DNA of 64,000 nucleotides, taken from contig JANEZZ010002201.1 of NCBI GenBank assembly GCA_026122225.1, positions 744,001 to 808,000 on the forward strand, given 5' to 3'. Shown here piece by piece: positions 1,333 to 63,301 of this stretch (its first letter is position 1; each line of letters starts with the position of its first letter). The DNA is from Heloderma charlesbogerti (lineage: Eukaryota > Chordata > Lepidosauria > Squamata > Helodermatidae). The notes below the pieces were generated by a model. That model did not search any database and was not told where the DNA came from. It was given only the letters and a program-made list of their open reading frames with translations. The position numbers and the translations under genes were made by a program.

Positions 1333-1659
1333 CTTATATTTCGATAACTGTGCCTTTTTCTCATATAATTCCATTTTTGGATCCACTGTATCATGCACTA
1401 TGATCTGATACTCTGACAGCCACTGAGTCTGTACTTTGTACTTATCTAAGAATTCCTTTGTTAAGTGGAGACACTTCTCTAAGGTTGTGTGTTCTTTCCT
1501 GATAGAGCAGGTCATGTCATCAAGCTGTTCCACACAATCACTAATCTCTTTTTTTAACTGTTCAGCTTCATTTCCCTTCATATATTTAATAGCTCTCTCT
1601 CCCTTCTCACGGGCAGATTTCAGCAAATTGTGACCAACATCCATGTCACTCATGAGATC
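1333..1659 (-). CDS. SYNE1: SYNE1 exon A (residues 1409-1517)
   Basis: 327 nt, 109 codons, phase 0, acceptor TGTTCACAG and donor GTAAAG. It encodes about one spectrin repeat: [20 protein letters not shown], then [17 protein letters not shown], and [14 protein letters not shown]. It is the last SYNE1 exon in the window; the next lies below coordinate 1. Confidence 0.97.
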
Positions 1660-7000: not shown

Positions 7001-10000
7001 TGCTTCTCCTGCCCTGCTTTGGATAGGCCTCCGAGTTCGGAGGTGGCCACCTATCTGAATAGAATTGCGCCCTTAGGGTGCAATCCTATGCATGTTTAGA
7101 CAGAAAAAAAGTCCTCAGGGACTCTTGAAATAAAAACAGAAGATTGGAAACATCCTCTCTCTTCATAAAACAAATAATTTTGAATATAGAATATTTAAAC
7201 TATGGTCTTTTTATTTAATAAAAAGAACCTGGAAGGAATTAAGCATAATCGTAAAAACTAATTCAAATTAACATTCTACAAATGGAGACATGCAATCATT
7301 TGTGGGTGTGTTTTTTGTCTGCAATATCATATTTGTTTGTAACCAATTATCCATTCACACATCAGTGAGGTTTCAATGATACATTCTAGGCTAGTTTGTT
7401 TCTCCTGTATTAGCTCATGGGAGAGATATTTTGCTGCTATTTCTATAATGGTCCACATGAGAAAGATATAAACGTCATGTATTGCAGGAGTACTGGTGAC
7501 CTGTGTTCATAGTGAAAGTATTTTCATAATAGCTGTTACATTTAGCCGAGGAACACAAAAAAGTCGGCCCAAGTTGAAAAGAATACCCATCTGATGTATG
7601 AATTACTTCTCAGTTGTCAGTGCCTGGAATAAATTAGTTGGCAAGGTCACTGATTGGGCTTGTGCAAATAAGCCAATGATAAACAGTAATTTTAAATATA
7701 TGTACTTTAGCCCACTACAAATACTCATCATTATATAACTTCCTCACCTTCATTTGTTGTAGCTGCATATCCTTTGTGGCTCTGTCAGACTGCCGGCCAG
7801 TCCTGATATTAACTTTCTCCTCCAGAGTTTTGAGCCAGTCATCAACCTTCAAAAATTTGTTCTCCATCAGCCTCAGTCTGCTTAAGGTGATGTTTAATTG
7901 TGTCCTGACCTCAGAAAGCTTGTGCTGATAGATTGTCCAGTCTTGACGTACAGATTCTAGTACTCTCTCTTCCAACTGGGGTATACCCCATGGGATTACT
8001 TCTTCCCTAACATGGAGTGCTGCATTAAGCAATGCCTGTCCCTCAGCGCAACGCACCTGTAATTCCTGAAAATGCAAAATTATTGGCATTACTCATTCAC
8101 TCATTCTATAATGGAATGCATTAGGAAGTTGAGTGCTTTAACTCATCTATTTCCAAACCCACTGCAGTCACCTGATATATGTTTAAGATTGCTTAAACTA
8201 ATTTCAAAGTGCACATAAACAACAATTTACACTGAAAAAGTATCATATGCTAATGCATAATATTCCCAACACACACACAATATTCCCTCTAATAGCAAAA
8301 TCAGATGGTTGGGTGCTTATCGGTTTGGAAGCAAAACAAGGCTACCAAAAATAAGTTGTGATTTTTACATACTCAGAGGACAATCAAGGTATATATAAGT
8401 AAATACATTTATAAAAGAAAAAGAAAATGTTGTTAACCCACTCTCCCATGGGTTAAATTTTTTTTTTAAAAAATCTCTTGGGTGTGTCTCAAGAGCTGGG
8501 ACTGAAAGGGTGTGGTCTGATTACTCTCAGCAGCTGTGTGGGCGGGGAGTTGCATTCCATTTCTGGACTCCTAACTGAGCAGAGCAGAGGAAGCTGCCCC
8601 ACCTGGTCTAGGGGTATGCAAGCAAGCAAGCTTCCAGAGAGCAAGCGATCAAAGCAAGTGAACAGGGAAAGCAAACAGGAGTTTGGCAGGGGTAGGGATG
8701 GCAGAGAATTCTGCGACGGATCTTGGTGAGGCCGAATGCCAGTGCATTCGGCCCCCCAAAAACTATTGCAGAACGAAGCCCCCGCCCCCCCACCCCACGA
8801 AAGGTGCGTGGGACAAAGTGCCCGCCGCCCCCACCCCACGAAAGGCATGTGAAACGGAGCACTTACCTGCTCCCGTCCGCGCTGCTGTGCGAATGGTAGC
8901 CGTCCTGCAGCCGCAATTCACTTGCTCCTCTTCAGCCGTGATAGGCTACGTAAATACTTACGTAGCCTATCACGGCTAACGCAGGGATGCCATTTGCGTC
9001 CCTGTGGAGGCTGTGATAAGTATTTACATAGCCTATCACAGCGCGGGGGGGAAACCCCAGCATACGCAAATGGTGGCAGCTACCGCCATTTGCGTACGCT
9101 GGGGTTTTCCCCCTGCCGTGATAGGCTACGTAAATTTTTTATTTTACGTAAATGGCCGGCCAGGATTCCAGGGGGAGGCACAGAGCGCCTCCCCCCCCAT
9201 CGAGGATTCCGGGGGGAGGGACGGAGCACCTCCCCCCCAGCGGAACCCGGTGGAGCCAGGTAAGCGGGGTTTCGTACACCCCTAGGCAGGGGAGGTCAAG
9301 GGGGAGGTCTCTAACTATTTTTTTAAATTTCTTTTTCTTTTAATACACACTTCTATAGTGGGGCTCTGTTGTTAACTTCCAGTGAACAGAGGACAAAGCA
9401 CAGGCTATTCCAGTACAATCAGAATGCTAGAAACAAAAAGGGAATAGGGACTATGGAAGGAAAAGACTCTCCAGTGGTGGTGACCTGCAAGGTCTGTGCA
9501 ATATTTGTTTTCTTGCCTCAGATCAACATGGCCTACATGTGCAACTAGTGCAAGTTGATTACACTGCTGGAAGAAAAAGTAAGAGGACTGGAGTGGTGAG
9601 GATCAACCCTCCAGGGAATAAGAGAAGACGAAGAGTTCTTCGACAGAATGGTGGAACTACAGCAGCAAAGCAAAGTACAGGAGCTAGAAGAGCAACACCA
9701 AGCTGAGGCAGAAGAGGAAAAGGCTGAGGCAAAGAAAAATGAAGTAGAGGATACTCCTTGGAAAAGGGTGACAGGAGCAGAAGAAGCCACTCTGCACCAG
9801 TAGAACAGGGGAGCTATGGAACTGTTTTCCGTAGGGATGTATGAATCCCTTACCTTGCTCCGCTGAGGGGCATCCGCGGTGGGGAGGAGGCGCTCCGTCC
9901 CTTCCCCCAGAATCCTCGACGGGGGGGAGGTGCTCCGTCCCTCCCCCTGGAATCCTGCCTGGCCGGCTCCGCTCCGTGGCCAAGCCATGGAGCTGCCAGC

Positions 10001-13000
10001 CAACTCCGGCCGCCCGCAGCCAGACATCTGGCTGCTGGGCAGCCCTGCAGGGACGCAAATGGTGGCTGTCGTAGCTGCTGCCATTTGTGTCCCTGTATTG
10101 GGCCGTGATAGGCTACATAAATATTTATGTAGCCTATCACGGCAGGGGGGGGGATACCCCAGCGTACGCAAATGGCGGTAGCTGCTGCCATTTGCGTATG
10201 CTGGGGTTTTTCCCCCTGCCGTGATAGGCTACGTAAATACTTACGTAGCCTATCACGGCCTCTGCAGGGACACAAATGGTGTCCCTGCATTAGCCGTGAT
10301 AGGCTACGTAAGTATTTACGTAGCCTATCACGGCTTGAAGAGGAGGAAGCGAATGGCGGCCAGGACGGACACCATCTGCAAAGCAGCGCGGACGGGAGCA
10401 GGTAAGTGCTCCATTTCGCGAGCCTTTTGTGGGGTGCAGGCAGCGGGGACTTCGTCCTGTGCACCTTTCGTGGGTTGGGGGGGGCGGGGGCTTTGTTCTG
10501 CGATGGATTTTGGGGGGCCGAATGCACTGGCATTCGGGCTCACCGAGATCCGTCGCGGAATTCTCTGACATCGCTAGTTTTCCGATACTTGAAGATGAGA
10601 CTGGAGGACAGCCTGCAGAGGAAGCATTACAGGGGAACCTGCATGAGAGCAAGCAAGAGGCTGAAGGTCAGTCAAGCAGAGGCAATGAAACCAAGGCCTA
10701 CAACAAGAAGGGAAAAGTAGTAGTGGTGGGAGACTCCTTGCTGTGTGGGATCGAAACCCAAGTATGTCACGAAGACTCATGGACTCACCAGGTATGCTGT
10801 CTCCCAGGATCAGACACATGATTGAAGGGTTTCCTACACTCATAAAGCCCACTGACAGGTATCTCTTTGTTCTCATCCATGTGGGAACAAATCATACTGC
10901 CAAGCGGAGCTATGAAGAAATCACGTCAGATTTTGAAGCTTTGGGAAGGAAACTCAAGAACTTTGGGGCCTAGATAGTTTTCTCATCCATCCTTCCAGTA
11001 GTTAGAAGAGGGATAGAAAGGGAAAGGAAAATACTCTGGGTGAATGACTGGCTAAGAAGGTGGTGCTGACATGAGAGATTTGGATTCTGGGACCACGGGC
11101 TATACTTCTTGGAAGATGGACTGCTGGCAAGGGATGGGTTGCACCACACAAGGGCTGGGAAGAATGTGTTTGGCCACAGCATGAAGAACTTCATCAAGAG
11201 GGCTTTAAACTGAATCCTACAGAGGAGGGAGACGTAAAGCTGGGGGTAACAATGGATGAAGGTTTATGCACCACAATGGAGATAACAGCTCTAATAGCGC
11301 CCAATAATAGTGTTCAAAAAAATGTAGGAAGAAAGACAGACTATAAAGCACATGGCCTTCCCTGTCTTTATACTAATGCCCAGAGTATGGGAAGCAAACA
11401 GAACAAACTCGAACTCTTAACACAGGAGGGAAAATACGACTTGATAGGTGTAGCTGAAACTTAGTGGGATGACTCCCATGACTGGAATACAGCAATTGAA
11501 GGATATAACTTGTTCAAAAAGAACAGAAGTAACAGAAAGGGAGGTGGAGTTGCACTATATGTTAAAAATACATATCTATGCACAGAAATACAGGAGGATG
11601 TGCTTGGTAGCCCCATCGAGAGCATCTGGGTTAAAATAAATGGAGCAAAGAATAAAAGGAACCTGGTGGAAAGAGTCTATTACTGGCCACCCAATTAAGG
11701 AGAAGACAAGGATGAAACTTTTGAAAAGCAAATTGCCAGTGTTTTAAGGAAGCATGATGTAGTAGTAATGGGGTACTTCAATTTCCCCAATATTTGTTGG
11801 GAGACAAATACTGCAAAACATGTCCCCTCCAAAAAATTCCTGACCTGTGTTGTGGATAACTTCCTCCTACAGAAAGTGGAGGAAGGAACTAGAGGATCAG
11901 CTATCCTTGACTTGATCCTAATAGGGATGGCGGAGAAATAAAAAAGGTAAATTGAAAAAACACACAAAAAACGTGATAGGCTACGTAACGATTTACGTAG
12001 CCTATCACGACTAGATTTTCAAAGTCAGCCATGATAGGCTACGTAAATCTTTACGTAGCCTATCACAGCTGACTTTGAAAATCTAGCCGTGATAGGCTAC
12101 GTAAATCGTTACGTAGCCTATCACGTTTTTTTTTTTTTTACTTTACGGGGAAATGGCGGCAGCGGCAGCCGGTCGGAAGACTGGCCACCGCCCCCACCGC
12201 CGCCGAACCGCCGCCAGGACCCGCCGCTGAGAGGGACATTCAACAGAGGTAAATCCCATCCCGGGGGGGGGCAGGGGGGAGGAGAATTTCCCCACGAATT
12301 TTGGGGGGCCAAATGCGTTGGCATTCGACCTCCCGGAGATTCGTGGAGAAATTCTCCACCATCCCTAATTCCGAGGAAAAAGTCCATGTAATCTTAGGAA
12401 GACTGAGTACTTTAACCAAACTGGACGTGTCAGTAAACATACTGCAGCCAGTGAAAATGGTAGTCAGGCATTTAGTTCTTCTTCTTTTCCCTCTTTAACA
12501 TCTAGTAAGACTTAGAACTAGGGATGTACTAAAGTCACTTACCTGTTCGCGGATTATGTTGATGGTCGGGGGGAGGCGTTCTCTCTCTCCCCCCAGAATC
12601 CTCGCTGGGGGGGAGGCACTCCGTTCCTCCCCCCTGGAATCCTCCGCAGCCGGCTGTGCTCCGTGGCAGCTCCGCGGAGCAGCTGGCCAGGCCCGGCCAG
12701 GCCAGAGCCATCCACAGCTGGATTTCCGGCCGCGGAGGGCTCTGGGTAAAACCCCCCACAAACAACAGCGTACGCAAATGGCGGCGGCTATGGCCGCCGC
12801 CATTTGCGTTCCTTATTTTTGCCCTCTTAATCTACGTAAATATTTACGTAGACTATGATGGCGAAAATCAAGGGGAACGCAAATAGCGTAGTGGGCGCTA
12901 TTTGCGTCCCTTTTTGATTCCCCGTTTTAGCCTACGTAAATAAATAAATACGTAAAATTTACGTAGGCTAAAACGGGGAATCAAAAAGGAACGCAAATAG

Positions 13001-16000
13001 CGCCCGCTAAGCTATTTGCGTTCCCCTTGATTTTCGCCGTCATAGTCTACGTAAATATTTACGTAGATTAAGAGGGTAAACATAAGGAACGCAAGTGGCA
13101 GCAGCCATAGCTGCTGCCATTTGCGTACGCGGTTTTGTTTTGTTTTTAACCCACCCAGCCATGATAGGCTATGTAAAGATTTACGTAGCCTATCACGTTG
13201 TTGTTTTTTTAAAAAAACCTAGTCATGATAGGCTACGTAAATCTTTACGTAGCGTATCACGTCTTTCTTTTTCTTTCTTTCTTTCTTTTTTTTACAAGAG
13301 TGGAAATGGTGGCGGCGGCGGCCGGTCAGAAGACCAGCCGCCGCCGCCGCAGCCACCGCTGCCTGGAAGATCCGCCCCAGGTTAGACTTGTCCCGGGGGG
13401 ATCCGCGGGGGGGTGGGGGGGTGGTAGGCCGTTCCGCCACGGAGTTCGGGGGGCCGAATGCACTGGCATTCGGCCTCACCGTGATCCATGGTGGAATTCT
13501 CTGCCATCCCTACTTAGAACCCCTTTATGGGTCACTGCCTTGTTGTGGCGAAGGGGCTTGCGTAACTCAGTGAAGCCATAAGTTATGCTGTGCAGGGCCT
13601 CCCAAGATGGACAGGTCATGCCAGAGAGTTCTGACAAAATGTGGTCCACTGCAGAAGGAAATGGTAACCCACTCCAGTATTCTTGCCAAGAAAACCCCAT
13701 GGAACCTATCACAAGGCTAAAAGAGATGACGCCGGAGGAGGAGCTCCTCAGGTCAGAAGGTGTCCAATATACTACTGGGGAAGAGCAGAGGGTATTTCCA
13801 AGTAGCGCCAGAAAGAGTGAAGCGGCTGGGCCAAAGCCGAAAGGATACTCAGCTGTGGATGTGTCTGGTGGTGAAAAGAAAATCTGATGCTGTAAAGAAC
13901 AATATTGTTTAAGAACCTGGAATGTCAGATCAATGAATCAAGGTAAGCTGGAGGTGGTCAAACATGAGATGGCAAGACTGAACATCAACATCTTGGAAAT
14001 CAGCGAACTAAAATGGACAAGCATGGGCGAATTTAATTCAGGTGACCCATCATATCTACTACTGTAGGCAAGAATCCCTTAGAAGAAATGGAGTAGCACT
14101 CATAGTCAACAAAAGGGTGGGAAAAGCAGTACTGGGGTACAATCTTAAAAACGATAGAATGATATCAGGACGAATCCAAGGCAAACCATTCAACATCACA
14201 GTAATTCAAGTCTATGCCCCAACCACTGAGGCCGAAGAAGCTGAGGTTGATCGGTTCTATGAAGACCTACAATACCTTCTAGAACTAACACCAAAAAAAG
14301 ATGTCCTCTTCATCATAGGGGATTGGAATGCTAAAGTAGGAAGTCAAGAAATCACCGGGATCACAGGCAAGCATGGCCTTGGTGTACAAAATGAAGCAGG
14401 ACAAAGGCTAATCGAGTTTTGCCAAGAGAACATGCTGATCATAGCAAACACTCTTTTCCAACAGCACAAGAGGCAACTCTACACATGGACATCACCAGAT
14501 GGTCAATACCGAAATCAGATTGATGATGTCCTTTGCAGCCAAAGATGGAGAAGCTCTATACAGTCAGTCAAAGCAAGACCTGGAGCTGACTGCGGCTCAG
14601 ATCATCAGCTGCTTGTTGCAAAATTTCAGCTTAAATTGAAGAACGTAGGGAAAACCACTAAACCATTCCGGTATGACTTAAATCATATCCCTTATGAATA
14701 TACAGTGGAGGTGAGGAATAGATTTCGCGCTTTTTTTTTTTTCAAAGTCACCTGTGATAGGCTACATAATGATTTACGTAGCCTATCACGGCTGACTTTG
14801 GAAATCTAGTTGTGATAGGCTACGTTAATCGTTACGTAGCCTATCACGGGGTTGTTGGTTTTTTTACACTTTTTTCGTGGCCGGGGAGACGGGGCGCTTT
14901 TCCCCGGCCTGAATTTCGGCTGGGCGAGGCGGGAAGCCTCCTCCCCGGCCTGAATTTCAGCCGGGCGAGGCGGGACGCCTCCCCCCCCTCGCCTGAACTT
15001 CGGGGGGAGAAGCGAAGCGCCTCCCCCCCACCGCAAAGCACCCCTGCGAAAAGGTAAGTGACTTTCGTACATCCCTACATTTGACACTCAGAGCTGAAAA
15101 GGTTGTGCACGTCTGTCTTTCAGTAGGGGGATACATTGCAGCTTTTTTTTTTTTGCAGGACCAACTTGTTACAAATAGTTCTTAATAGGGGAAAGCATAT
15201 AAAAAACTCTACCTGGAGTTCTCGAAGTGTTGCTTCATGTCTCTCTGCATCACCTTCAAGATGTGATAAACAATTGAGTTTCTCCTGTTCTTTTTCTAGC
15301 CATACTTCAAAGGCCTTCAGATTTCTTTGGTACTCATGATGCGAATGAACCAATTCCTCAGCTTTAGTTATTGTTTCCTATTATTAGAATTATCTCATTA
15401 GTGTTGATGAAAAAAGGACCAAACATGCAGTGTCTGGATTTCATTTCTCTAACTTTTCACTGGTGCTTAAATGGAGGAGTGTTCTGGTTGCTTAGGGAAG
15501 ATATAGCTGAGAGACAAATATACTAAACACAGCATTGAATTTAGGAAATGTATTATTATTTATTATTATTACATTTCTATACCGCCCCATAACCAAAGCT
15601 CTCTGGGCAGTTTACAAAGATTAAAAACCATTTAAAAAAAATATACAAAACAGACAGTAGATACGTCGACAACATATATCTGGAACAACTTTAAGCAATC
15701 AACTATGACCATAAGACAAATCCAGGACCTAATTAAACTCATGGTATGCTGCCAAATGCCTGAGAAAAGAGAAAAGTCTTTGCCTGGCACCAAAGAGATA
15801 ACAATGTTGGCACCAGGTGGGCTTTGTCAGGGAGATCATTTCATCACCGGGGGGCCACTTAAAATAACTGGAAGGTTAGATAAAATCAGTCAGACTACAT
15901 ACAACCCAACATTCATAAGCAAAAAAAAAGCACTTGTCTCCACACCTTCTCTAAACAAGCCTACAAGGAGAACGTTTGTAGCAGTATTAAGAGACGCAGT

Positions 16001-19000: not shown

Positions 19001-22000
19001 TTCAAGTGATGTATTTTGCAAAACAGATTCTCCTCTTGTCAGTACCATTTTCATTTGGATTTCTTTCTCCTGTTTTACTGAAAGCAGTCCCTGGAAAACA
19101 AACAGACCCTGTTTCCATCCTTATCGTGACACTGTACTACTCCTTCCACAAACAGAAAAAGAAATTACCAAATTTACTTGCGGAATAAAGTGTTGTTGTA
19201 CTGCCCCACCACCACAGGCTCAGCCAAGCTGTCAGCCACGAAAGCAGAAGTAACAGCCTATTTTGCCATTAGGAGAAATATTTAGGGGTGGACGAAAGTT
19301 GCTTACCTGTCGTCGAAGGCTGTTCGCGGTGGGGGAGAGCGCTTCGCTGCTCCCCCCGCGAAGTTCAGGCCGGGGGGGGAGGCTTCCCGCCTCGCCCGGC
19401 CGAAATTCAGGCCGGGGAGGAGGCTTCCCGCCTCGCCCGGCCGAAATTCAGGCCGGGGAGGAGGCGCGTCGCCTCGCTCGGCCGCGAACGCGAAAGTAAA
19501 AAAAACAAAAAAACAACGCCCCCTGATAGGCTACGTGACGATTCATGTAGCCTATCACGGCTAGATCTGCAAAGTCAGCCGTGATAGGCTACGTGAATCG
19601 TCATGTAGCCTATCACGGGTGACTTTAAAAAAAAAACAAAAAAAGCGCGTACGCGAATGGTGGCCCCCATAGGGAGCCGCCATTCGCATTCCTTATTTAG
19701 TGGCTGTCGTCTACGTAAATGTTTACGTAGACTACGGCGAAAATAAGGGCAACGCTATTTGCGTTGCCCTTATTTTCGCCCTAGTCTACGTAAACATTTA
19801 CGTAGACTACAGCCACCAAATAAGGAACGCGAATGGCGGCTCCCTATGGGGGCCGCCATTATCCGTACACACTTTTTTTTTTTTTTTAAGTCACCCGGGA
19901 TAGGCTATGTGACGATTCACGTAGCCTATCACAGCTGACTTGGCAAATCTAGCCGTGATAGGCTACGTGAATCGTCACGTAGCCTATCAGGGGACGTGGT
20001 TTTTTTTTTTTCTTTCATTGCAATGGCGGGGGCGGCAGCCGGTCGAAAGACCGGCTGCCGCTCCCGCCCTGCTCGAATACCGGACGAACCGCCAGCCGGA
20101 CCCGCCGCCGGGAGGGACATTCAGGGAAGGTAAGTCCCGTCCCGGGGGGGGTGCGGGGGGCGGGGAGGATTTCTCCCCGAAACTTGTTCGGGGAGAAATT
20201 CTCCGCCATCCCTAGAAATATTAGGGATGTACGAAAGTCACTTACCTTTTATGAAATTTGATTCGCGGTGGGGGGGAGGCGCTCCGTCCCTCCCCCCGAA
20301 ATTCTGACCGGGGGGGAGGTGCCCTGTCCCTCCCGCCGCGAATCCTGGCTGGCCGGGACTGCAAATGGCAGCGGCCATAGCCGTCGCCATTTGCGTCCCG
20401 GCAGTCAGCCGTAATAGGCTACATAAATGTTTACGTAGCCTATCACGGCTGAGTTAAAAAAAAAACCTGCACGTACGCAAATGCCGCCATTTGCGTTCCT
20501 TAATTTGGCACGTCTAGTCTACGTAAACATTTACGTAGACTACGGCGAAAATAACGTAAATGTTTACGTAGACTAGACGTGCCAAAATAAGGAATGCAAA
20601 TGGCGGCGCCCATGGGCGGCACCATTTGCATATGTGCGGGTTTTTTTTTTAACTCAGCCGTGATAGGCTACGTAAACATTTACGTAGCCTATCACAGTAT
20701 TTTTTAAAAATCTAGCCGTGATAGGTTACTAAATCTTTACGTAGCCTATCACATTTTTTTTTTTTAAACTTGGAAATGGCAATGGCGGCAGCCGGTCGGA
20801 AGACCGGCCGCCGCCACACCGCCGCCGCACCGCCGCCGGAGCCGCCGCCACCAGGGAGATTCGCCCAAGGTAAGTCCCGTCCTGGGGGGTGGCGGGGGGG
20901 TGGCAGTTTCACCACCGATTTCGGCGGGCCGAATGCGCTGGCATTTGGCCTCTTTGAGATTTGTGGCGAAATTCTCTGACATCCCTAGAAATAATACAGG
21001 AGTGCCTGCTGACTTCGAAGTAAATTCTGAAACTTTTTGCAATCGTACACATAGGGGCAAAATACATATTTCACATGAATATGTGTAACTGAAGCCACGT
21101 TTTCCTTGGAAAGCTGTGTCATGAGGAAGTGATTGAGAGCAGAGATGCATTTAATCCCTTCCCCACCTGCTGTTTCCTCGCTTCAAAATCACCCCCCCCC
21201 AAGCCTCTTTCTTACACTGGGGGTTTTTCCCACTGCCGTGATAGGCTACGTAAGCATTTACGTAGCCTATCACGGCGGGGGGGGGGGAGAAACCCCAGCG
21301 TATGCAAATGGCGGCGGCTACCACCATTTGCGTACACTGGGTTTTTTCCCCCTGCCGTGATAGGCTACGTAAATATTTACGTAGCCTATCATGGCTCAAT
21401 AGAGGGACACAAATGGTGGCTACGAAAGCTGCCATTTGCGTCCCTGAAGGGCTGCCCAGAGGCCGTATGTCCGGCTGCGGGCAGCCAGAGCCGGCTGGCG
21501 GCTCCACAGCTTGTCTGCGGAGCGGAGCTGGCCGGGTGGGATTCTGGGGGGAGGGACAGAGCACCTCCCCCCCGTTGAGGATTCCGGGGGGAGGGACGGA
21601 GTGCCTCCCCCCCCCACGGATGCCCCTGCGTGGAGCCAGGTAAGGGATTCGTACATCCCTATGTCCCAGGAGGCTGTTCCAGGTGGTCCAGAGCCTGGCC
21701 AGTCCAGTGGCTCTGGAACCGCTGGAGCATTCTAAGGCCTCCTGTGAGGCCTTGGCAAGGCACTTTGCGGATAAAATTGATCAGATTAGGAGTGTTATTC
21801 CATGCGCTGTGGATACAGTTAGTGAGCAAGAGGCAGTCTGTGGCAAACTGGTTATGTGGGATAGGTTCCATTTTCTTCCTTCTGATGAAGTGGACAAGGT
21901 GCTTTCATCTGTAAGGCCGACCACCTGCTTACTTGATCCTTGCCCATCTTGGCTCATTATGGGCTACAGAGAGAGATTGGGTGAGGGGATAAGGGCGGTG

Positions 22001-25000
22001 GTGAACGCCTCCCTTGAGGAGGGAGTGATGCCATCAGCCCTCAAGGAGGCAGTGATAAGACCACTCTTAAAGAAGCCCTCCTTGGATCCCCAAGTTCTGA
22101 ACAACTTTCGCCCAGTCTCAAATCTGCCATTTTTGGGCAAGGTGATTGAGCGGGAGGTGGCGATGCAGTTGAAGGCACACTTGGAAGAAGCCGATTATCT
22201 AGATCAATTTCAGTCAGGCTTCAGGCCTGGGCATGGGACAGAAATGGCCTTGGTCGCCTTGGTGGATGATATGAGGAGGGCTTTGGATAGGGGCGAATGC
22301 TCCTTCCTTGTTCTCCTTGACCTCTCACTGGCTTTTGATACCATTGACCAGAGTATCCTCCTGGAATGCCTGGAGGGGTTGGACATTGGAGACACCGTAT
22401 TGCGGTGGTTCCGGTCCTTCCTCTTCCTCTGGGAGAGGAGGTTTTGGACCTGTGGCTGCTCACTTGTGGGGTGCCACAGGGTTCCATCCTCTCCCTGATG
22501 CTATTTAACATTATGTGAAGCCGCTGGGAACCATCATCAGGAGGTTTGGGGTGCGGTGTCATCAATATGCGGATGACACGCAGCTCTACCTCTCGTTCAA
22601 ATCTTCACCAAGGTTGGCTGTAGAATCCCTGTCCAAATGTCTGGAGACGGTGAGTGGCTGGATGGGGAGGAATAAGGTGAAGCTGAACCCTGACAAGACT
22701 GAGGTGCTTTTGGTGGGAGACAAGAGGAGGTTGGGGGATGTTGACCTGGTGTTGAATGGGGTACGGCTACCCTTGAAAGACCAGGTTCGCAGCCTGGGGG
22801 TCATTTTGGACTACCAGCTGTCCATGGAGGCTCAGGTGTCAGCTGTGAGCTGGACAGCGCTGTACCAACTCCATCTGATATGGCGGCTGTGCCCCTTCCT
22901 TCCTGACCATCTGCTCCCATCGGTAGTACATGCCCTGGTCTCCTCTCGTTTAGACGAATGCGCTCTACGCAGGGTTACCCTTGAAGACGGTTCGGAAGCT
23001 GCAGCTGGTACAGAACGCGGCGGCTCGCCTGATTAAAGGCAGCGGCCAGCAAGGTCACATCACTCCAGTGCTGAAGGAGTTGCACTGGTTACCAGTTGTT
23101 TTCCGGGCCAAACTCAAGGTGTTGGTTTTGAAAGCTTCTATGGTTCTGGCCCAGCCTATCTAAGGAGCACCTCCAGCAACACCAGACAGGGCGTTTTACA
23201 AGGCTAGCCAGCCTTGGATGGTCTTCTCTCTGTCCCATCAGCCAGAACAGCTAGACTGGTGAGGACGAGGAAGAGGGCCTTCTCTGTGGTGGCCCCCACC
23301 CTATGGAACTCCCTCCCTGGGGAACTCCGCCATGCCCCCTCTTTAATGAGCTTCCGCCACACATTAAAAATGTGGTTGTTCAGGCAGGCATTTGGGGTGG
23401 GTTAGGGTATTTTTAGAAATATGTTTTTAATGTAGAATTTTATTGTTTCAAACTGTTTCTATTATTGTACATCGCCCAGAGTGGCTGGGTGACCAGCCAG
23501 ATGGGCGATTAATAAATTAAATAAATAAATAAATAAATGTATAATTTGGCCCACAGTTGGAATGTGTAGATCCCACTGATGTCAATGGATCAGAAGATGG
23601 CAGTCATATTAGCCTCTGACAACAAATGCCTTGTTTTGTTTGCAGGAAGAATATTATTTCAACAATCCTGAAATAAAACTATTTTGTATCGGTTGTGATC
23701 TGTGATCCCTGGATCTCTGAGTACTTGGAAAGATGTTTGCTTTTTAATTCATGCAGCACCAAACACACTCCTTACTTTCACAAAATCCACCGCTACCTGC
23801 AAAGGATTTGTTGTTTCTCAGCCACTTTCACAGGGAGCGGGGGACAAAGTCAAAGAAATTTCTTCTTGGGGACACGGGGGGAGTATTTACCTTATGAAGT
23901 ACATCAGGAAGTCAAGCTGCCTGTTACTTTGTTTTTACTTTTAAAATGGCCCCGATGCACTTGAAGCAGTGCAGAGTTCTTCACATGCAGGCTATCAGGC
24001 CACCTGGGAATATGGCACTGCATGGTCACATGGGCATTTCAGTAACTGCTGCCAAGTGGAAAGTCTGTATATTATGAAGAATCCCGCACCTAGGGATGTC
24101 AGAGAATTTCTCCACGAATCTCGGGGAGGCCGAATGCCAGCGCATTCGCCCCCCCAAAATTGGTGGAGAAACGGTCTGCCCCCCCGCCCCCCCGGGACGA
24201 GACTTACCTTGTGCGAATGTCCCTGGCGGCAGCGGCCGGTCTTCCGACCAGCTGCCGCCGCCGCCATTTCCAAGTTTAAAAAACAAACAAACAAACATGA
24301 TAGGCTATGTAAAGATTTACATAGCCTATCACGGCTAGATTTTAAAAAAACACCGTGATAGGCTATGTAAATGCTTGCGTAGCCTATCACGGCTGAGTGA
24401 GGAAAAAAAACAACTGTGCGTACGCAAATGGCGGCGCCCTTATTTTGGCACGTGTAGTCTACGTAAATATTTACGTAGACTACGGCGAAAATAAGGGGAA
24501 CGCTATTTGCTATTAAACGCTATTAAACGCTATTAAACATTTACTTAGCCTATCATGGCTGGCTGCAGGGACGCAAACGGCGGCGGCTACGGCCGCCGCC
24601 ATTTGCGTCCTGACAGGACAGGAGGATTCGTGGCTGGAGAGATGGGGTGCCTCCCCCCTGGCCAGAATTTCGGGGGGAGGGACGGAGCGCCTCCCCCCCA
24701 CCACGAATCAAGCTTCGGGTTCAGGTAAGGGACTTTCATACATCCCTACCCGCACCACTGGCAGCACTTCGGGGCCATTTTAAAAGTAAAAGATTCTGAA
24801 GACGCCCCAGCTACCTCATTAACGTAATAAGGTAAATGAAACACCAGCCACCCCAACCCCAATAAAACATTTCTTCAAAGTTCTCCCCCTCCCCAGCCTC
24901 TTCACAGACTTTTTTGTTTTGTCCCCACAAATAGCCCCTCCCCAAATATGTTCATTGCAACATTATTTTTTAAATAGAACTTGGATTCTTTTATCCATTA

Positions 25001-28000
25001 TGTGAGGATACTAGATTTAATCAGGAACCCCGTATTCATAAATCCCAGTGTCTTGTAAACAAGGAAGTTTTGCCTTTGCAAATAAGTTAGCTTTGGTCAT
25101 TATAAACAATATTTGAAAATGTTAATCATAAACAAAACAAAATACATTAAAAATATTACATCCTTAAATCTGACATTCACTTGCTCACATGCATGCAATA
25201 GACACAAGATTTGGTTTTTTTTAAAAAATTACATACAGTTTTCTTGGTCCTGGCACACAGAATAATAGAATCATAGAACAGTAGGGTTGGAAGGGGCCTA
25301 CAACACCATCATGTCCAACCCCCTGCTCAGTGCAGGAAGCCTACAGCACCTGGTATTCCCAGGTGGTCTCCCATCCAAGTTCTAACCAGGCCTGATCCTG
25401 CTTAGCTTCCGAGATCAGATGAGATCAGGCTAGGGGTGTACGAAAGTCACTTACCTGTCCTCGAAGCTTTTTGCAGTGGGGGGAAGGCGCTTTGCTGCTC
25501 CCTCCATGAAGTTCAGGCCGGGGGGGAGGCTTCCCGCCTCGCCCAGCCGAAATTCAGGCCGGGGAGGAGGCGCCTCGCCTCGCCCGGCTGCGAACTCAAA
25601 AGTTAAAAAAAAACAAACGCCCCCGTGATAGGCTACGTGACGATTAACGTAGCCTATCACGGCTAGATCTGCAAAGTCAGCCATGATAGGCTATGTAAAT
25701 CGTCACGTAGCCTATCATGGGTGACTTAAAAAAAAAAAAGCACGTACGCAAATGGCGGCCCCCATAGGGAGCCGCCATTCGCGTTCCTTATTTGGTCGCT
25801 GTAGTCTACGTAAATCTTTACGTAGACTACGGCGAAAATAAGGGCAACGCTATTTGCGTTGCCCTTATTTTCGCTGTAGTCTACGTAAAGATTTACGTAG
25901 ACTACAGCGACCAAATAAGGAATGGGAATGGCGGCTCCCTATGGGGGCCGCCATTATCCGTACGCGCTTTTTTTTTTTTTTTTTTAAAGTCACCCGTGAT
26001 AGGCTACGTGACGATTTACGTAGCCTATCATGGCTGACTTTGCAAATCTAGCCGTGATAGGCTATGTTAATCGTCACGTAGCCTATCACAAGGGCGTTTG
26101 TTTTTTTTTCTTTTCTTGGAATGGCGGCGGCAGCAGCCGGTCGAAAGACTGGCTGCCACTCCCGCCCCGGACGAAGACCCGCCGAACCGCCGGCCGGACC
26201 CGGGAGGGACATTCGCCAAAGGTAGGTCCTGTCCCGGGGGGGGGGTGTGTGGAGAATTTCTCCCCGAAACTTGTTCAGGGGGCCGAACATGTTGGCGCTC
26301 GGCCCCCCGAAGTTTCGGGGAGAAATTCTCCGCCATCCCTAGATCAGACGAAACTCTGAATAACATTCATAACCAATACTCTACCAGGGCTTCTCTTGAA
26401 TAATTATAAGTTATCTCATCTGGTTTAATTCTGTTATGCTTTAATCCCAAATGCCCCTTGTTTGTATTATGAAATAAAATAGATCGGAAAACAGATTTGG
26501 ACCCTTGAGATGTGCATATGTAAAATTCCTTTCAACAATATTGCAAAAATGACATGACATGAGTAGAAATATTTCATATTAAACACCTGAGTTAAGCTTT
26601 CTTTGTGCTCTCGTTTACCTACCTCAAGCTTTGCCATTCTACTATCAAGGGCACTTTTGTCTGCTGTGGGATGGCAGTAAGACTCTAGCATCTGAATTGC
26701 ATCTGCCATCCAGTCCTGAAGCTCTTTCCGACCATGAGAGAACTGTTGGTGCTCCGCTACAATTCTGTCCATTTTGGAGACCTTTTCCTTAAAGTCATAC
26801 AGATGTTAACATTACCAATCATTCAGATAATCTACCATTCCACTAGAGTTGAAAAAAATCAGAAAGGGAAATCTCAGAAGACTACATTCTGGATGAGTCA
26901 AGGGGCAGAAAGTCAGAAAGATCAATTGGCCCCAATTTTCCTCCTTTGCTTGGGATTCACTGCTGCACAATTAGTCTGCACAAACAACTCATGTATGATA
27001 TGTGATCATAATGTATGTCAGCAGTGCATATTTTTTTCTGCTTGCTGCACTCAGAGCGAGTACGTATGGTGGGAAGTTATGGGATTCTATTGCATGTGCA
27101 TAACTTTTTAAAAAGTGTACTTATACTTTTCATGCGTTACAAGGTACCCTGCATGTATCTGCATTTGCTAATTATATAGCAAGTCAAACCTTATTTCCCT
27201 TGTTACGTCTTAGTTCTCATACCCATTTAATGGCACACTGGTGACCCAAGCTTAAGATCTCACAAAGCTGTTGCATGAACACTGTTCATATTTCTGCTGG
27301 GTGATGCCCTTGATTCATCTGTGAATTTAAAAGCCTGAAATATTTCCTCCCCACAAACACAGCACCTTTCTGCCTGACTTGCCTTTAAAAACTTAATATA
27401 GCTCTTTTTCCAGTGTAGCTCTTTATGACTGTTAGGTAGACCTGTTTCCATGGCCCCTACATGCACCACTGTTGGATAAAATGGCCAGTTCTTAGACTCA
27501 CTGGAACTCAGTGCCTCTGCAGGGGTAGGGGACCGATTAAGCTGGTCGCCCCAGGAGGCTGATGGATCCGGATGGTTTCCTGATGACTCTTGGGGATTTT
27601 CCTGCTGCCTCGGCAGGCAATTCTGTTGAAGCCCTGGCTGATCTCTGGAATAGGGAAATGGCTAGGGCGGTGGACACAATCGCTCCTGAGCATCCCCTCT
27701 CACAGAGTGGAGCCAAATCAGCACACTGGTTCTCTAGGGAACTGGCAGCAATGAAGTGAATGAGACGGAGACTAGAGTGACATTGGCGGAAAACTCAGAA
27801 CGAGTCCGATCGAACACGGGCTAGAGCTTATTTGAAAGCCTACTCCATGGCAGTGAGGGCAGCAAAGAAGTCTTTCTTTTCTGCCACCACTGCATCTGTA
27901 GGGAGCCAGCCAGCAGAGCTGCTTCGAGTGGCCAGCGGCCTTCTACATCCTGGCCCCTGTGATAAAAATTCTGACCACTTGACAGCCCACTGTGAACAAT

Positions 28001-31000
28001 TTGCTCAGCACTTTGCTGATAAAATCGTTTGGATCCGTTCTGACTTGGATGCTGTAGTTGATGCAGATCCTGTGGATGTCACTTTGGCTCCTGCATGCTC
28101 AGTGTTGATGGATTCTTTTCAATGTGTGCAGCCCAAGGATGTGGACAGGATCCTTGGAGCGGTGAGAGCCACCATATGTATGCTGGATCCTTGCCCCTCC
28201 TGGCTTATTAAAGAGGCTGAAGGAGGACCGCCTGAGTGGATAACGGGAGTGGTTAATGCCTCTTTGGAACAAGGTTCCATTATGCTTAAAAGAGGCAGTT
28301 ATGAGACCTCTGTTGAAGAAGCCTTCCCTGAATTCCGCCATACTAGATAACTATCGTCCAGTCTCTAACGTACCATTTTTGGGCAAGGTATTAGAGCGAG
28401 TGGTGACCTCCCAGCTCCAGGGGTTCCTGGATGAAACGGATTATCTTGTCCCATTTCAATCTGGTTTCAGGCCTGGGTATGGGCTGGAGATAGGGATGTA
28501 CGAAAGTCACCTTTTCGACGGGGTGATTCGCGGTGGGTGATTCGCGAAATCCTGATCCGGCCGGCTCTGCTCTGTGGAAATTCTGCAGAGCTGCTGGCCG
28601 GGGCCGCCCGCAACCGGACATCCGGCCACTGGGCAGCCTTCTGGAAAAAAAAAATCCTCGTATGCAAATGGCGGAGGCTACGGCGGCCGCCATTTGCGTT
28701 CCCTTTTTTTTGGTTTTAGTCTACATAAATATTTACGTAAGCTATTACGGCGAAAAAAAGGGGAACGCAAATAGTGTAGTGGGTGCTATTTGCATTCCTT
28801 TTCCTCCCCACCGTTTTAGTCTACGTAAATATTTACGTACGCTATTACGGCAAAAAAAAGTGGAACGCAAATAGCGCCCACTATGCTATTGCGTTCCCCC
28901 TTTTTTCGCCGTAATAGCTTACGTAAATATTTACGTAGGCTAAAACAGTGAAAAAAAGGGAATGTAAATGGCGGCCACCGTAGCTGCCGCCATTTGTGTA
29001 CGCTGTTTTTTGTTGTTGTTGCCGTGATAGCCTACGTAAGTATTTACGTAGCCTATCACGGCAAAGGCAGCTACGCAAATGGCGTGGAGTCTGCCATTTG
29101 CGTGGCTGCCTTTGCCGTGATAGGCTACATAAATACTTGCATAGCCTATCATGGCAGCCTGGCCGGATGCAAATGGCGGCTGCTACGGCAGCTGCCATTT
29201 GAGTCCGCAGCAGCCGGACGAGAGGCCAGCTGCTGCTGCCGCCACTGGAGCCACCGCTGGAGCCACCACCACTGGAACATCCGCCCCAGGTAAGCTTTGT
29301 CCCGGGGGGGATTCTGCAGGGAGGCGGGGGATGGGAGGCCGTTCTGCCATGGGTTTCGGGGGCCAAATGCCAGTGCCTTCGGCCTCACTGAAATCCGTGG
29401 TGGAATTCTCCGCCATCCCTAGACAGAGACAGCTTTGGTCACCTTGGTGGATGACCTACGCCAGGAACTGGACAGGGGGAGTGTGTCTGTTAGTTTTGCT
29501 GGACCTCTCAGAGGCATTCGATACCATCGACCATGGTATTCTTCTGGGATGCTTCGGCCTCGCTGGGATGGGACTTGGGGGTACTGTTTTACAGTGGCTC
29601 CATTTCTTCCAAGTGGGGCGAACTCAGAAGGTGGTGTTGAGGGATGCCTGTTTGATTCCGTGGCTGTTAGCTTGCGGGGTCCCTCAGGGTTCTCTTCTGT
29701 CCCCCATGCTATTTAATAGCTACATGAAATCACTGGGAGAGGTTGTCCAGAGTTTTGGAGTTCGGTGCCACCAATAAGCTGATGACACCCAGCTCTTTTA
29801 CTCCTTTCCACCAGATTCCAAGGAAGCTGTTTCTGTCCTTAACCAGTGTTTGGCATCAGCAACGGACTGGATGAGGGAGAACAAACTGAAACTTAATCCA
29901 GACAAGACACAGGTGCTCTTGGTCAGTCAAAAGGCAGATCAGGCAATAGGGATTCAGCCTGTGTTGGATGGGGTTACACTCCCCCTGAAGACTCAGGTTC
30001 GCAGTAATAGCCTATGTATATTTACATAGGCTATCACGGTGAAAAAAAAAGGAACGTAAATAGCGTAGTGGGTGCCATTTGCGTTCCTCCCCCCCCCCCG
30101 TTTTAGCCTACTTAAATATTTACGTAGGCTATTACGGCGGAAAAAAAAGGAATGCAAATAGCGCCCATTACGCTATTTGCGTTCCCCTTTTTTCGCCGTA
30201 ATAGCCTACGTAAATATTTACATAGGCTAAAATGGCTAAAAATATCTTAAGGAGTGCCTCCAGCAGCACCAGACAGGCCGCTTAACAAGATCAGCCTCGG
30301 ATGGCCTTCTCTCTGTCCCATCAGCCAGGACAGCTAGACTGGTGGGGACGAGGGAGAGGGCCTTTTCTGTGGTGGCCCCCACTCTGTGGAACTCCCTCCC
30401 TAGGGAACTCCGTCATGCCCCCCCTTTAATGAGCTTCCGTCGTGCATTAAAAACGTGGTTGTTCAGGCAGGCATTTGGGGTGGGTTAGGGTATTTTAGAA
30501 AATGTTTTTATTGTAGAATTTTATTGTTTTAAACTGTTTTATTGTATGCTGTACATCGCCCAGAGTGGCTGGGTGACCAGCCAGATGGGCGATTAATAAA
30601 TTCAATAATAATAAATAAATAAATAAAAATAGGGAACGCAATTGGCGGCCACCATAGCTGCTGCCATTTGCGTACGCTCTTTTTTTTTTTGGCTTCTCGT
30701 GATAGGCTACGTAAATATTTACGTAGCCTATCACGGCCTCCGCAGGGAAGCAAAAGGCGTCCCTGCATTAGCCATGATACGCTACGTAAGTATTTACATA
30801 GCCTATCATGGCTATGATGAAGAAGTGAACGGCGTGCCATTCGCAAGTCAGTGCGGACGGCAGGAGATAAGTGCTCCATTTTGTGCGCCTTTCGTGGGTT
30901 GGGGGGGCGGGGGCTTCATTCTGCCACGGATTTCGAGGGGCCGAATGAACTGGCATTCAGCCTCACCGAGATCCGTGGCGGAATTCTCTGACATCCCTAA

Positions 31001-34000: not shown

Positions 34001-37000
34001 CTGCACTAAATATGCCAACAAATTTGGAACACTCAGCAGTGGCCACAAGACTGGAAAAGGTCAGTTTACATTCCAGTTCCAAAGAAGGTCAATGCCAAAG
34101 AGTGTTCAAACTACCATACAATTGTGCTCATTTCACACGCCAGCAAGGTTATGCTGAAAATCCTACAAGCTAGGCTTCAGCAGTATGTGAACCAAGAACT
34201 ACCGGAAGTAAAAGCTGTTCTTGTACCGGACGTACAAGCTGTTCGAGTTCAGTTTCCAGAAAACAAAAAATCCTATGGCCATCTAGACGCTGTCTAGCGG
34301 CCATAGGATAGTGCTCTAAATAAAGTGCATTAAAACTTAGGGATGTACGAAAGGCACTTACCTTTCGCGGATTATGTTGATGGGGGGGGGGAGGCGCTCC
34401 GTCCCTCCCCCCGGAATCCTGGACAGGGGGGAGGTGCTCCGTTCCTCCCCCCCCCCCGGAATCCTGGCTGGCCAGCTGTGCTCCGCAGGGATTCTGCGGA
34501 GCCGCCAGCCGGCTCCGCCAGCAGCCGGACATCCGGCCGCTGGCTAGCAGGGACGCAAATGGCGGCGGCCGTAGCCGCCACCGTTTGCATCCCTGCAGTC
34601 AGCCGTGATAGGCTACGTAAATGTTTACGTAGCCTATCACGGCTGACTTAAAAAACAACAATGTGCGTAAGCAAATGGCGGCGGCCACAGCCGCCATTTG
34701 CATTCCTTATTTTGGCACGTCTTAGTCTACGTCAAGATTTACATAGACTAAGACGGCGAAAATAAGGGGAACGCAAATAGCATAGCGGATGCTACGCTAT
34801 TTGCGTTCCCCTTATTTTCGCCGTCTTAGTCTATGTAAATCTTGACGTAGACTAAGACGTGCCAAAATAAGGAATACAAATGGCGGTGGCCGTGGCCGCC
34901 GCCATTTGCGTATGCGCGTATTTTTTTTTTAAGTCAGCCGTGATAGGCTACGTAAACATTTACATAGCCTATCACTTTTTTTTTTAACTTAGCCGTGATA
35001 GGCTACGTAAATCTTTACGTAGCCTATCACTTTTTTTTTAACTGGAAATGGCGGCGGCGGCAGCCGGTCAGAGGACCGGCCGCCGCTGCCACCGCCGCCG
35101 CACCACTGCCGGAGCCACCGCCGCCAGGAAGATCCGCCCCAGGTAAGTCTCGTCCCGGGGGTGGGGGGGCAGACTGTTCCGCCACCGATTTCGGGGGGCC
35201 GAATGCGCTGGCATTCGGCCTCCCTGAGATTCTTGGTGGAATTCTCTGACATCCCTACACACTAGTGGCCCCAAATTTCAGATAATCTTTTTTTTCTTTT
35301 TGTATCAAGTCCTGGTCATTGACCACGCCTTGAAGCTTCTTGAAGCTTCTTTATGTGCAGCCTCATATACATTTCACATGATGTGGACAAACCGAGAACT
35401 ACCGGAAGTACAAGCTGGGTTTCGAAGAGGCAAAGGAACTAGAGATCAAATCGCCAACATTTGCTGGATCATGGAGAAAGCAAGAGAATTCCAGAAAAAC
35501 GTCTATTTCTCCTTCATTGACTACACTAAAGCCTTTGATTGTGTGGATCACAACATACTCTGGCAAATTCTGAAAGAGATGGGAGTACCAGACCACGTAC
35601 CTGTCTCCTGAGAAACCTGTACGAGGGTCAAGAAGCAACAGTAAGAACCAGACATGGAACAACCGATTGGTTCCAAATTGGGAAAGGAGTACGACAAGGC
35701 TGCATATTGTCGCCCTGCTTATTTAATTTATATGCAGAATACATCATGAGAAATGGCGGGTTGGATGAATCACAGGTCGGAATTAAGATTGCTGGGAGAA
35801 TTATCAACAACCTCCGATATGCAGACGATACCACCCTAATGGCAGAAAGCGAAGAGGATCTAAAGTACCTCTTGCTGAGGGTGAAAGAGGGGAGTGCAAA
35901 AGCTGGTTTGAAACTCAACATTAAAAAAACTCAGATCATGGCATCTGACCCCATCACTTCCTGGCATATAGAAGGGGAAGAAATGGCAGCAGTGACAGAT
36001 TTTATTTTCTTGGGCTCCAAGATCACTGCAGACGGTGACTATAGCCATGGAACTAAAAGACGCTTGCTCCTTGGGAGGAAAGCTATGGCAAACCTAGACA
36101 GCATAGTAAGAAGCAGAGACATCACCTTGCCGACAAAGGTTCGTATAATCAAAGCTATGGTTTTCCCAGTAGCAACGTATGGCTGTGAGAGCTGGACTAT
36201 AAGGAAGGCTTAGCACCGAAGAATCAATGCTTTCAAACTGTGGTGCTGGAGAAGACTCTTACGGGTCCCCTGGACTGCAAGGAGGTCAGATCAGTCAATC
36301 CTAAAGGAAATCAACCCTGACTGCTCATTGGAAGGACAGATACTGAAGCTGAAGCTCAAATATTTTGGCCACCTAATGCGAAGAGAAAACTCCCTGGAAA
36401 AGACCCTGATGCTGGGAAAGACTGAAGGCAAAAGGAGAAGGGGACGGCAGAGGATTGGATGGCTAGATAGCATCACCAATGCAATGAATATGAACCTGAG
36501 CACGCTCCGGAGAGAGCGGAGGACAGGAGGGCCTGGCGTGCTGTGGTCCATGGGGTCATGAAGAGTCAGACACGACTTAACGACTCAACAACAACAATTG
36601 GTTTCTGTCACAACTTTGTGGGGTGTGATAGGCATTGGGCTGGATCAATTTAGGAGAGAGAACAGGATTGGGCTGGGTGTAGCACCAAGGCCGGGCCAGC
36701 ATGGTGGCTGCAAATGTGCCACGTCCAGGGTGGAGGGGAAGTGGTTCACGTTAGTGGTCTGTGCCTTGGTTGGCCTCTGACCTTCCCACTCATCACCAAC
36801 ACTCCTGGCCAGGAAGGAAAATTGGACAGCAGTTGGGCTGCCCAATGGTGGGATCCATGCCCTTATACATCCACCAATAGCATTAAAAAATTAATAAAGT
36901 TGTGGCCAATTTAATAACCCATTTAAGTTGGTGTCTCTGGTTTGTTCCTTTCATCTGCCACACAGACCCATTTAGATACTACACCACACAATGACATTTT

Positions 37001-61952: not shown

Positions 61953-61965
61953 ACCAGCTTTTGCA

Positions 61966-62296
61966 AACCGCCGTAGCCGCCGCCATTTGCGTACACTGTG
62001 TGTGTTTTTTTAGCTTGCCGTGATAGGCTACATAAATACTTACATAGCCTACCAAGGCGTCCGCAAATGGCGTCCCTGTGTTAGCCATGATAGGCTACGT
62101 AATTATTTACGTAGCCTTTTACAGCTATGAGGAAGTGAATGGTGGCCGCAGTGCGGCCGCCATTCACAAGTCAGCAAGGATGGCAGCAGGTGATGGCAGC
62201 AGGTGAGCAGCTTCGTTCTGCCACAGATTTCGGGGGGCTGAATGCACTGGCATTTGGCCTCACCGAGATCCGTGGCAGAATTCTCTGACATCCCTA
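61966..62296. mobile_element. Palindromic hAT-like element 15, one end only
   Basis: The terminus ACATCCCTA (ending 62296) and donor CAG|GTGAGC are present. Two TACATAAATACTTACATA-type hairpins and a GCGGCCGCCATTCAC block follow. The other end lacks a terminus: sequence starts at AACCGCCGTAGCCGCCGCC directly after BovB, and about 115 bp of BovB are missing. Confidence 0.85.
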
Positions 62297-62850: not shown

Positions 62851-63299
62851 GAACACAATCCTATGGCCGCTAGACAGCGTCTAGATGGCCATAGGATTTT
62901 TCGTTTTCTGGGAACTGCACATGAAATCAGCGCTCTGAGGTCAGTTCCCAGAAAACTACCTCCCCTTGCCCTCTCCTGCCACCTTGTAGGAGCACGGTTC
63001 GTCCCTGGCTCCGCACGCGTAAGAGCAGCGCAGAGCGGGGGGAAAGGGGGCATTCCTGGGGGCCGGAAGGGGATGGCAGAAGTACCATTACGATGCTTCC
63101 TATGCACTGTCTGGCCTCCACGCCCCCCCCCCACTTTGAGGCACCCCAGCTAGACAGCCAAAATCGGCCATCTAGCCACAATGCAGGGCACTTGGAGCGG
63201 AGAGGAGAAGATCCCCTCTGCGCTCCACCTGTGTTCACTGGATAGTCAGTCACTCCAAGTTCAGAGGCGGCTGACTATCCCCATAGGATTATGCGCTTA
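62851..63299. mobile_element. Foldback element, family B, copy 4
   Basis: It starts GAACACAATCCTATGGCC and ends CCATAGGATTATGCGCTTA. The flanks TTTATTTA (62843-62850) and TTTATATA (63300-63307) match at seven of eight, an 8-bp duplication as in hAT elements. Inner blocks GCTAGACAGC and TAGACAGCCAAAATCGGCCA are shared with copy 3. Confidence 0.78.
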
Positions 63300-63301
63300 T
63301 T

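Follow-up and report, generated by a model that had tools for sequence, protein, structure and literature searches.

The window, the whole 64-kb stretch of apparently reptilian DNA analysed here, contained a family of nested-palindrome elements, and the best explanation, to which we give a probability of about 0.55 on the evidence of this one window, is that they belong to a non-autonomous family of hAT type in which DNA template switching homogenises the palindromes. The copies had hAT-type ends and target-site duplications (TSDs), and their palindromes were nested. As judged from alignments, each of the six copies examined had core arms that evolved in concert; one pair of copies had matched changes surrounding arm differences that were older and inherited, and the mismatches had no strand-specific wobble bias. 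From these patterns we infer template switching rather than other arm conversion, as well as its timing and a trans-acting transposase.

A blastn search of the window with ten seed copies found 15 copies or fragments (E1-E15, Table 1) with TAGGGATG/CATCCCTA-type sequence, in agreement with the about 15 copies with common ends counted in the earlier note. Fourteen lay inside 8693-35257 and the remaining one at 61954-62296, and a clustering of 14 of 15 random points within 26.6 kb was reached in just 0.1% of 20000 draws. The occurrence of TAGGGATG at 17463 was judged not to be a family copy. Apart from four one-ended fragments (E5, E8, E13, E15) and one internal fragment (E12), all copies (10/15) carried both ends. 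Perfect 8-bp TSDs were confirmed for the five two-ended copies for which they had been claimed (E1, E2, E4, E6, E9); the TSD of E10 matched at 7/8 positions, E7 had one mismatch to the duplication of E6 once shifted by one base, and a recognisable TSD was not found in three of the ten two-ended copies, E3 (4/8), E11 (5/8) and E14 (1/8). The flank control gave one match at ≤1 mismatch in 90 cross-pairings. The left terminus of E3 was of the right-end type, with 1/16 mismatches to the right consensus and 5 to the left. The TSD consensus of Ac is nTnnnnAn, and by eye one of the five perfect TSDs followed it (CTTAGAAC), while none of the five followed the Buster consensus nnnTAnnn (PMC3517528). 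The consensus ends had TAGGGATG in common (8/8) and then partial matches, which is below the terminal inverted repeat (TIR) length of about 15 bp given for hAT elements in PMC11008031; PMC3517528 gives short TIRs of 5-27 bp. Both hAT features, an 8-bp TSD and short TIRs, were thereby present in the window copies. A Pfam scan of ten chosen ORFs of the window found no hAT domain, and the copies were shorter than 1 kb. Together, the TSDs, ends and structure support the hAT-like, non-autonomous and nested-palindromic reading proposed earlier.

Table 1. Copies and fragments of the nested-palindrome family in the window, with one arm marker.
Feature	Position	Strand	Description
E1	8693..9284	-	both ends; TSD GGCAGGGG
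E2	9832..10576	+	both ends; TSD GTTTTCCG
E3	11922..12367	+	446 bp; right-type left terminus; 166-bp palindrome 11966-12131; without TSD
E4	12519..13512	+	both ends; TSD CTTAGAAC; core palindrome 12764-13134
E5	14726..15077	-	left-end fragment
E6	19283..20214	+	both ends; TSD GAAATATT; core palindrome about 19498-20015
E6 arm marker	19654/19863 (one per arm)		substitution and adjacent 1-nt indel; common to E10 at 25749/25958
E7	20222..20987	+	both ends; directly adjoins right TSD of E6
E8	21213..21661	-	left-end fragment
E9	24091..24748	-	both ends; TSD CCCGCACC
E10	25431..26341	+	both ends; TSD GATCAGGC/GATCAGAC; core palindrome about 25605-26109
E11	28491..29421	+	both ends; without clear TSD (5/8)
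E12	29998..30244	+	internal hairpin fragment, 247 nt
E13	30617..30999	+	right-end fragment
E14	34338..35257	+	both ends; without TSD; core palindrome 34605-34975
E15	61954..62296	+	right-end fragment; between two BovB-like ORFs, overlapping both

The interior of the elements consisted largely of hairpins. The half-site GTGATAGGCTACGTAA (≤3 mismatches) occurred 85 times against 0.32 expected, and all 85 lay inside the 15 copies. Partners with ≤6 mismatches stood exactly 4 nt apart for 77/85 half-sites and 2-3 nt apart for three, and five had none; this was a free-spacing count, whereas a separate scan yielding 49 modules had the 4-nt centre set in advance. The hairpins of about 36 bp, often paired, that the earlier note described are therefore real, and its core palindromes also held, but their sizes ranged from 166 bp (E3) up to about 505 bp (E10) and 518 bp (E6) instead of 160-350 bp. 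Hairpins with arms of ≥10 nt covered 44% of the element bases and 3.8% of the bases outside; in 20 shuffles the per-copy means were 0.3-2.8%, and the largest single value, 21%, came from the 247-nt E12. Folded as single strands, E6 (as RNA) and E14 (as DNA) had z of about -40 and -43 against 20 shuffles each. The arms of the 36-mers covaried, with 82 mismatches versus 144 when shuffled. With module types taken apart this covariation was weak (H_d and H_e, for which 62/10000 and 418/10000 shuffles were as low). The arms of the H_c hairpins covaried as well, with 35 mismatches versus 49.4 shuffled and 0/10000 shuffles as low in 18 of the 19 hairpins found (the one of E1 at 8889 was left out). 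The inner-module centres ATGT/ACAT and ATCT/AGAT occurred in both orientations between copies, in few cases and with uncertain positional homology; loop inversion, the sharpest sign of template switching, is only suggested in these modules.

Concerted evolution of the core arms was seen in the arm tree and quartets of 12 arms from the 6/15 copies with alignable two-arm cores (E4, E6, E7, E10, E11, E14). The left and right arms were sisters in E4 (82/82), E6 (93/85), E7 (85/89), E11 (98/95) and E14 (87/90), and the arm pair of E10 joined the E6 arms (100/98). These supports were moderate, with starred branches limited to the E11 pair and the E6+E10 group, and the left arm of E7 occupied 44% of the columns. 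A clade of left arms appeared in 0% of 200 bootstrap trees, and forcing it cost 123 lnL units. Quartet sites counted as within, side-wise and cross were 11/1/1 for E4-E11, 11/3/1 for E6-E10 and 6/4/0 for E7-E14, the last with a small margin (6 vs 4; 6 vs 6 in an earlier alignment). Pooled over these three non-overlapping copy pairs, they were 28/8/2, or 19/4/0 with CpG sites excluded, so that matched changes stood to the homoplasy control as 28:2, and as 19:0 outside CpG; in the earlier alignment, made separately from these pairs, the counts were 26/11/2. Long, closely spaced and similar inverted repeats are described as a risk for breaks and rearrangement (PMC7999016), and the earlier note held that the survival of such long palindromes needs an explanation. 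Concerted arms would supply a sequence-based answer to that question, although the arms were not perfect (89-96% identity across seven cores).

Under the preferred reading, a short MITE-like DNA transposon would depend for its movement on a hAT transposase acting in trans and presumed to bind its ends, and its interior would have been assembled through repeated inverted copying, giving hairpins nested in palindromes. During replication or post-excision repair synthesis, the arms would stay alike because a polymerase at the hairpin can use one arm as the template for its partner, by template switching or quasipalindrome correction. Template switching is described to homogenise inverted-repeat arms and invert spacers (PMC8604942), and to be able both to give rise to hairpins and to preserve them, loops of 4 nt being enriched; multiple compensatory changes were enriched over simulation in that work, single ones were not (PMC8794818). 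A wider proposal, which we regard as tentative and somewhat doubtful, is that template switching authored the interior as a whole, with hairpins seeding hairpins and palindromes perfecting themselves, so that the nested architecture would arise without selection on the sequence.

The sister-arm tree is equally predicted if each lineage rebuilt its palindrome from one arm via inverted duplication, for example by abortive gap repair after excision, in which case the arms would reflect recent origin and not upkeep. The right-type left terminus of E3 agrees with such rebuilding, and both abortive gap repair and template switching have been invoked for the variants of Galileo, a P-superfamily element (PMC4168063). 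Against it stands the pair E6/E10, in which ten matched sites are spread around two inherited left/right differences (19567/19946 and 19654/19863, the latter with an indel), some falling to either side of each. Since these old differences are common to both copies, the palindrome is older than the E6/E10 split. This evidence comes from two markers in a single copy pair; a further common difference, in the central loop, says little, and 4/10 matched sites lie in or beside the A-rich linker, where the alignment is less sure. Rebuilding is an unlikely account, though the best placed of the alternatives. From the same pair, arm matching may act in short tracts. The 28 singletons of E6/E10 mean that unmatched mutations were common after the copies separated, so homogenisation either is incomplete or took place mainly in source copies.

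Selection on RNA structure is slightly less probable again; here, transcripts with the element would form highly stable hairpins and then undergo processing or removal (small RNAs, or a reported splicing system that excises transposons via terminal inverted repeats). The fold z of about -40 for E6 as RNA speaks for it, and PMC13155455 cites a 2026 report of TIR-recognising transposon splicing. GU and AC mismatches were nevertheless equal, 30:29 among the 1219 arm pairs of seven cores (the E2 core left out) and 22:24 in the 49 36-mers, so neither strand was favoured; selection on both strands alike would be compatible with this balance.

CpG observed/expected was 1.01 inside the elements versus 0.24 outside. 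CpG sites were more diverged than other sites in 22/22 copy pairs (pairs overlap in copies), which indicates that the CpG richness is decaying and needs no special protection, and a protected CpG island was ruled out as its reason. The motif AAATGGCGGC, which presumably resembles a YY1 site, occurred 20 times inside the elements and never outside, and the splice-donor-like CAGGTAAGT (≤1 mismatch) occurred 16 times inside versus 7 outside (1.65 vs 0.13 per kb); in 10/12 copies with a left end it stood 22-25 bp away from that end. That selection kept repeated binding sites, namely the half-sites (CTACGTAA core, AAATGGCGGC) and outward AGGTAAGT near both ends, as a mobile regulatory unit or transposase subterminal sites is improbable, more so than selection on RNA structure, because such putative sites, despite the enrichment of both motifs and the left-end spacing of CAGGTAAGT, by themselves leave the matched arm changes and the long nested symmetry unexplained, and the faster decay of CpGs gives no sign of a protected promoter.

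Palindromic vertebrate DNA elements like the window family are known from fish, namely the Angel palindromic MITEs and Tol2 with its internal inverted repeat; these have one palindrome and not nested modules, a distinction drawn by description only. Mar, a Drosophila non-autonomous hAT/MITE, is similar in its 8-bp TSDs, short TIRs, length of <1 kb and non-coding sequence, but it is described as AT-rich, whereas the window family has 54% GC, is CpG-rich and forms a nest of hairpins (PMC3517528). Galileo, foldback-like, shares cut-and-paste movement and long, structurally variable inverted repeats (PMC4168063), but the window family has short termini and carries its long inverted repeats in the interior, in nested form; the likeness to Galileo is one of architecture. 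Homogenised arms, compensatory pairs and 4-nt loops are likewise features of quasipalindrome correction and short template switches; the cases treated in PMC8604942 and PMC8794818 are yeast genes, rRNA and microRNA genes, in contrast to a transposon family, and the main text of PMC8794818 does not contain the word stem 'transpos'.

The exact 16-mer half-site was found in 2 viral and 24 prokaryote contigs with one match each, and hence without paired modules. The 24 prokaryote matches were rejected as relatives and treated as chance, since about 120 matches are expected by chance in 257 billion bases if all four bases are equally frequent, a reckoning for the prokaryote set only. The ORF crossing E8 had no protein match at E≤0.001 among 324 candidates, and Rfam at gathering thresholds gave just one 5S-like match, overlapping the edge of E10 by 13 nt, and one tRNA-like match. 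No published description of the family was recognised among the papers listed, and it may still be named; what is new here is how palindrome arms evolve within copies. Arms copied from each other could explain the persistence of an unlikely hairpin-in-hairpin layout. The copies are natural replicates in which arm homogenisation, tract length and loop inversion can be measured in a vertebrate germ line, and a multi-copy family allows the mutational origin of perfect hairpins to be separated from selection. They also call for caution, as compensatory pairs, often taken as proof of RNA structure, can arise by DNA copying alone.

A second hairpin-rich family, F2, unrelated in appearance, was also present in the window. 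Its arms were not counted as another instance of concerted evolution, since F2 had little covariation, with a kept two-sided change in 16/123 predicted pairs and a slightly unfavourable covariation term (+1.81). Under the wider proposal of an interior authored by template switching, the presence of F2 hints that short DNA transposons of this genome may repeatedly end up in this way.

E1 to E15, the copies of the short hairpin-rich hAT-like element, are a real multi-copy, non-autonomous hAT-type family with an unusual nested-hairpin interior. Searching ten seed copies back against the whole window gave 15 copies or fragments, of which ten had both ends, four had one end (E5, E8, E13, and E15), and E12 was an internal piece. 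Perfect 8-bp duplications flanked five of the ten two-ended copies, the same five that the earlier note had listed (E1, E2, E4, E6, and E9) and no others, and the duplication of E10 matched at 7/8 bases. Among the ten two-ended copies checked, E3, E11, and E14 showed no clear duplication, which makes a simple insertion history less likely in their case. Fourteen of the 15 copies lay inside 26.6 kb, and random placement was as tight in 0.1% of 20000 draws. E6 and E7 stood head to tail with 7 bases between them (20215-20221) and the target GAAATATT common to both; the right duplication of E6 directly adjoined E7, and the duplication of one copy apparently served as the exact insertion site of the other. 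The consensus ends had TAGGGATG in common and then diverged. Of the 12 left-ended copies, 10 (all but E3 and E11) carried an outward-facing CAGGTAAGT-like motif at a distance of 22-25 bp from that end. The 12 right-ended copies had CAGGTAAGT matches with at most 2 mismatches at 85-175 bp from their right end, that of E13 being doubtful. The motif could serve either as a subterminal site for the transposase or as a splice donor.

Hairpins whose arms measured 10 nt or more made up 44% of element bases; mean cover was 0.3-2.8% in shuffled copies (20 shuffles per copy) and 3.8% in the rest of the window. The most frequent module was a 36-bp palindrome with the arm GTGATAGGCTACGTAA (H_d), and the arm of a related 36-bp module (H_e) carried TAGTCTACGTAA or similar. 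The 36-bp hairpins described in the earlier note were borne out by 85 half-sites against 0.32 expected, every one within the copies: 77 had a partner at a spacing of exactly 4 nt and 3 at a spacing of 2-3 nt, and the other 5 were partnerless. When the centre was fixed at 4 nt, a scan gave 49 modules. A second hairpin type (H_c) had arms like AAATGGCGGC. These modules were nested in longer inverted repeats, whose arms were 89-96% identical in seven cores.

Hairpin-rich features and other matches in the window
Feature	Position	Strand	Size or score
E6 palindrome	19498-20015		~518 bp
E10 palindrome	25605-26109		~505 bp
E4 and E14 palindromes			~371 bp each
E3 palindrome			166 bp
F2 copies	18435-18850, 6634-7075, 62856-63300	+	
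F2 copy	5378-5764	-	
F2 fragment	34245-34316		
Separate inverted repeat	17842-17950 / 18245-18353		109 nt, 74% complementary, 294 nt apart
ORF, nesprin-1 spectrin repeat	1291-1701	-	E 0.00034
Rfam 5S rRNA match	25338-25443	-	50.4 bits
Rfam tRNA-like match	56321-56392		34.3 bits

Judged by sequence comparison of the six testable copies, the core arms evolve in concert. In a tree of the 12 arms from these copies, which have alignable two-arm cores, left and right arms were sisters in 5/6 copies (bootstrap supports 82-98%), and the E10 arms grouped with the E6 arms; only the E11 pair and the E6+E10 group were starred. Quartet sites from three non-overlapping pairs, with the cross pattern as homoplasy control, were 28 within-copy, 8 side-wise, and 2 cross (19, 4, and 0 without CpG sites), and all 15 non-independent pairs among the six copies gave 195, 12, and 8. 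The first alignment gave 26, 11, and 2 for the same three pairs, and in it E7-E14 had 6 within-copy and 6 side-wise sites, four of the latter at the extreme edge of the aligned arms.

E6 and E10 had identical left/right differences at two places within the palindrome, 19567/19946 and, next to an indel, 19654/19863. The palindrome therefore predates the E6/E10 split; a third shared difference, in the central loop, carries little weight. Ten matched changes (the same change in both arms of a copy) flanked these markers on either side, four of them in or beside an A-rich linker. Since they lie on both sides of inherited markers, the pattern in this one pair speaks for short inter-arm copying tracts and against remaking of the whole palindrome in each lineage. 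Template switching, in which the polymerase copies one hairpin arm from the other, is the favoured mechanism because of its known effects (PMC8604942, PMC8794818).

Selection on RNA folding would also keep the arms matched, and equal action on both strands is compatible with the counts of G:U and A:C mismatches (30 vs 29 in the long arms, 22 vs 24 in the 36-mers); however, folding of one transcript strand would raise G:U above A:C, and this excess was absent. A single palindrome origin followed by independent arm mutation would group left arms of different copies together, yet they failed to do so, with a left-arm clade in 0/200 bootstrap trees and a cost of 123 log-likelihood units when it was forced.

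The CpG observed/expected ratio was 1.01 in the copies and 0.24 outside. In 22/22 aligned copy pairs, positions with a CpG in at least one of the two copies differed more often than the remaining sites (22.5% vs 6.7% for E6/E10); this ratio is approximate, because positions that became CpG in a single copy are counted as well. The CpG content of the elements was probably high at the time of their spread and is now falling.

A second hairpin-rich repeat family, F2, was CpG-poor, had the ends TTAGGGAGCAATCCTAT / ATAGGATTGTGCCCTTA, and is probably older. The flanks of its 18435 copy agreed by eye at 5/8 bases, and the separate inverted repeat lies just before this copy. Scanning ten ORFs, a minority of the window frames, revealed no hAT transposase domain. 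The nesprin-1 match was weak and below Pfam's cut-off, and the window may lie within a SYNE1 gene. Together with several reverse transcriptases and BovB-like ORFs, this signal fits the squamate intron assumed in the earlier note. The 5S rRNA match overlapped the left end of E10 by 13 bases and appears to be a repeat of 5S origin that was the target of the E10 insertion; the tRNA-like match is perhaps a tRNA-derived SINE.
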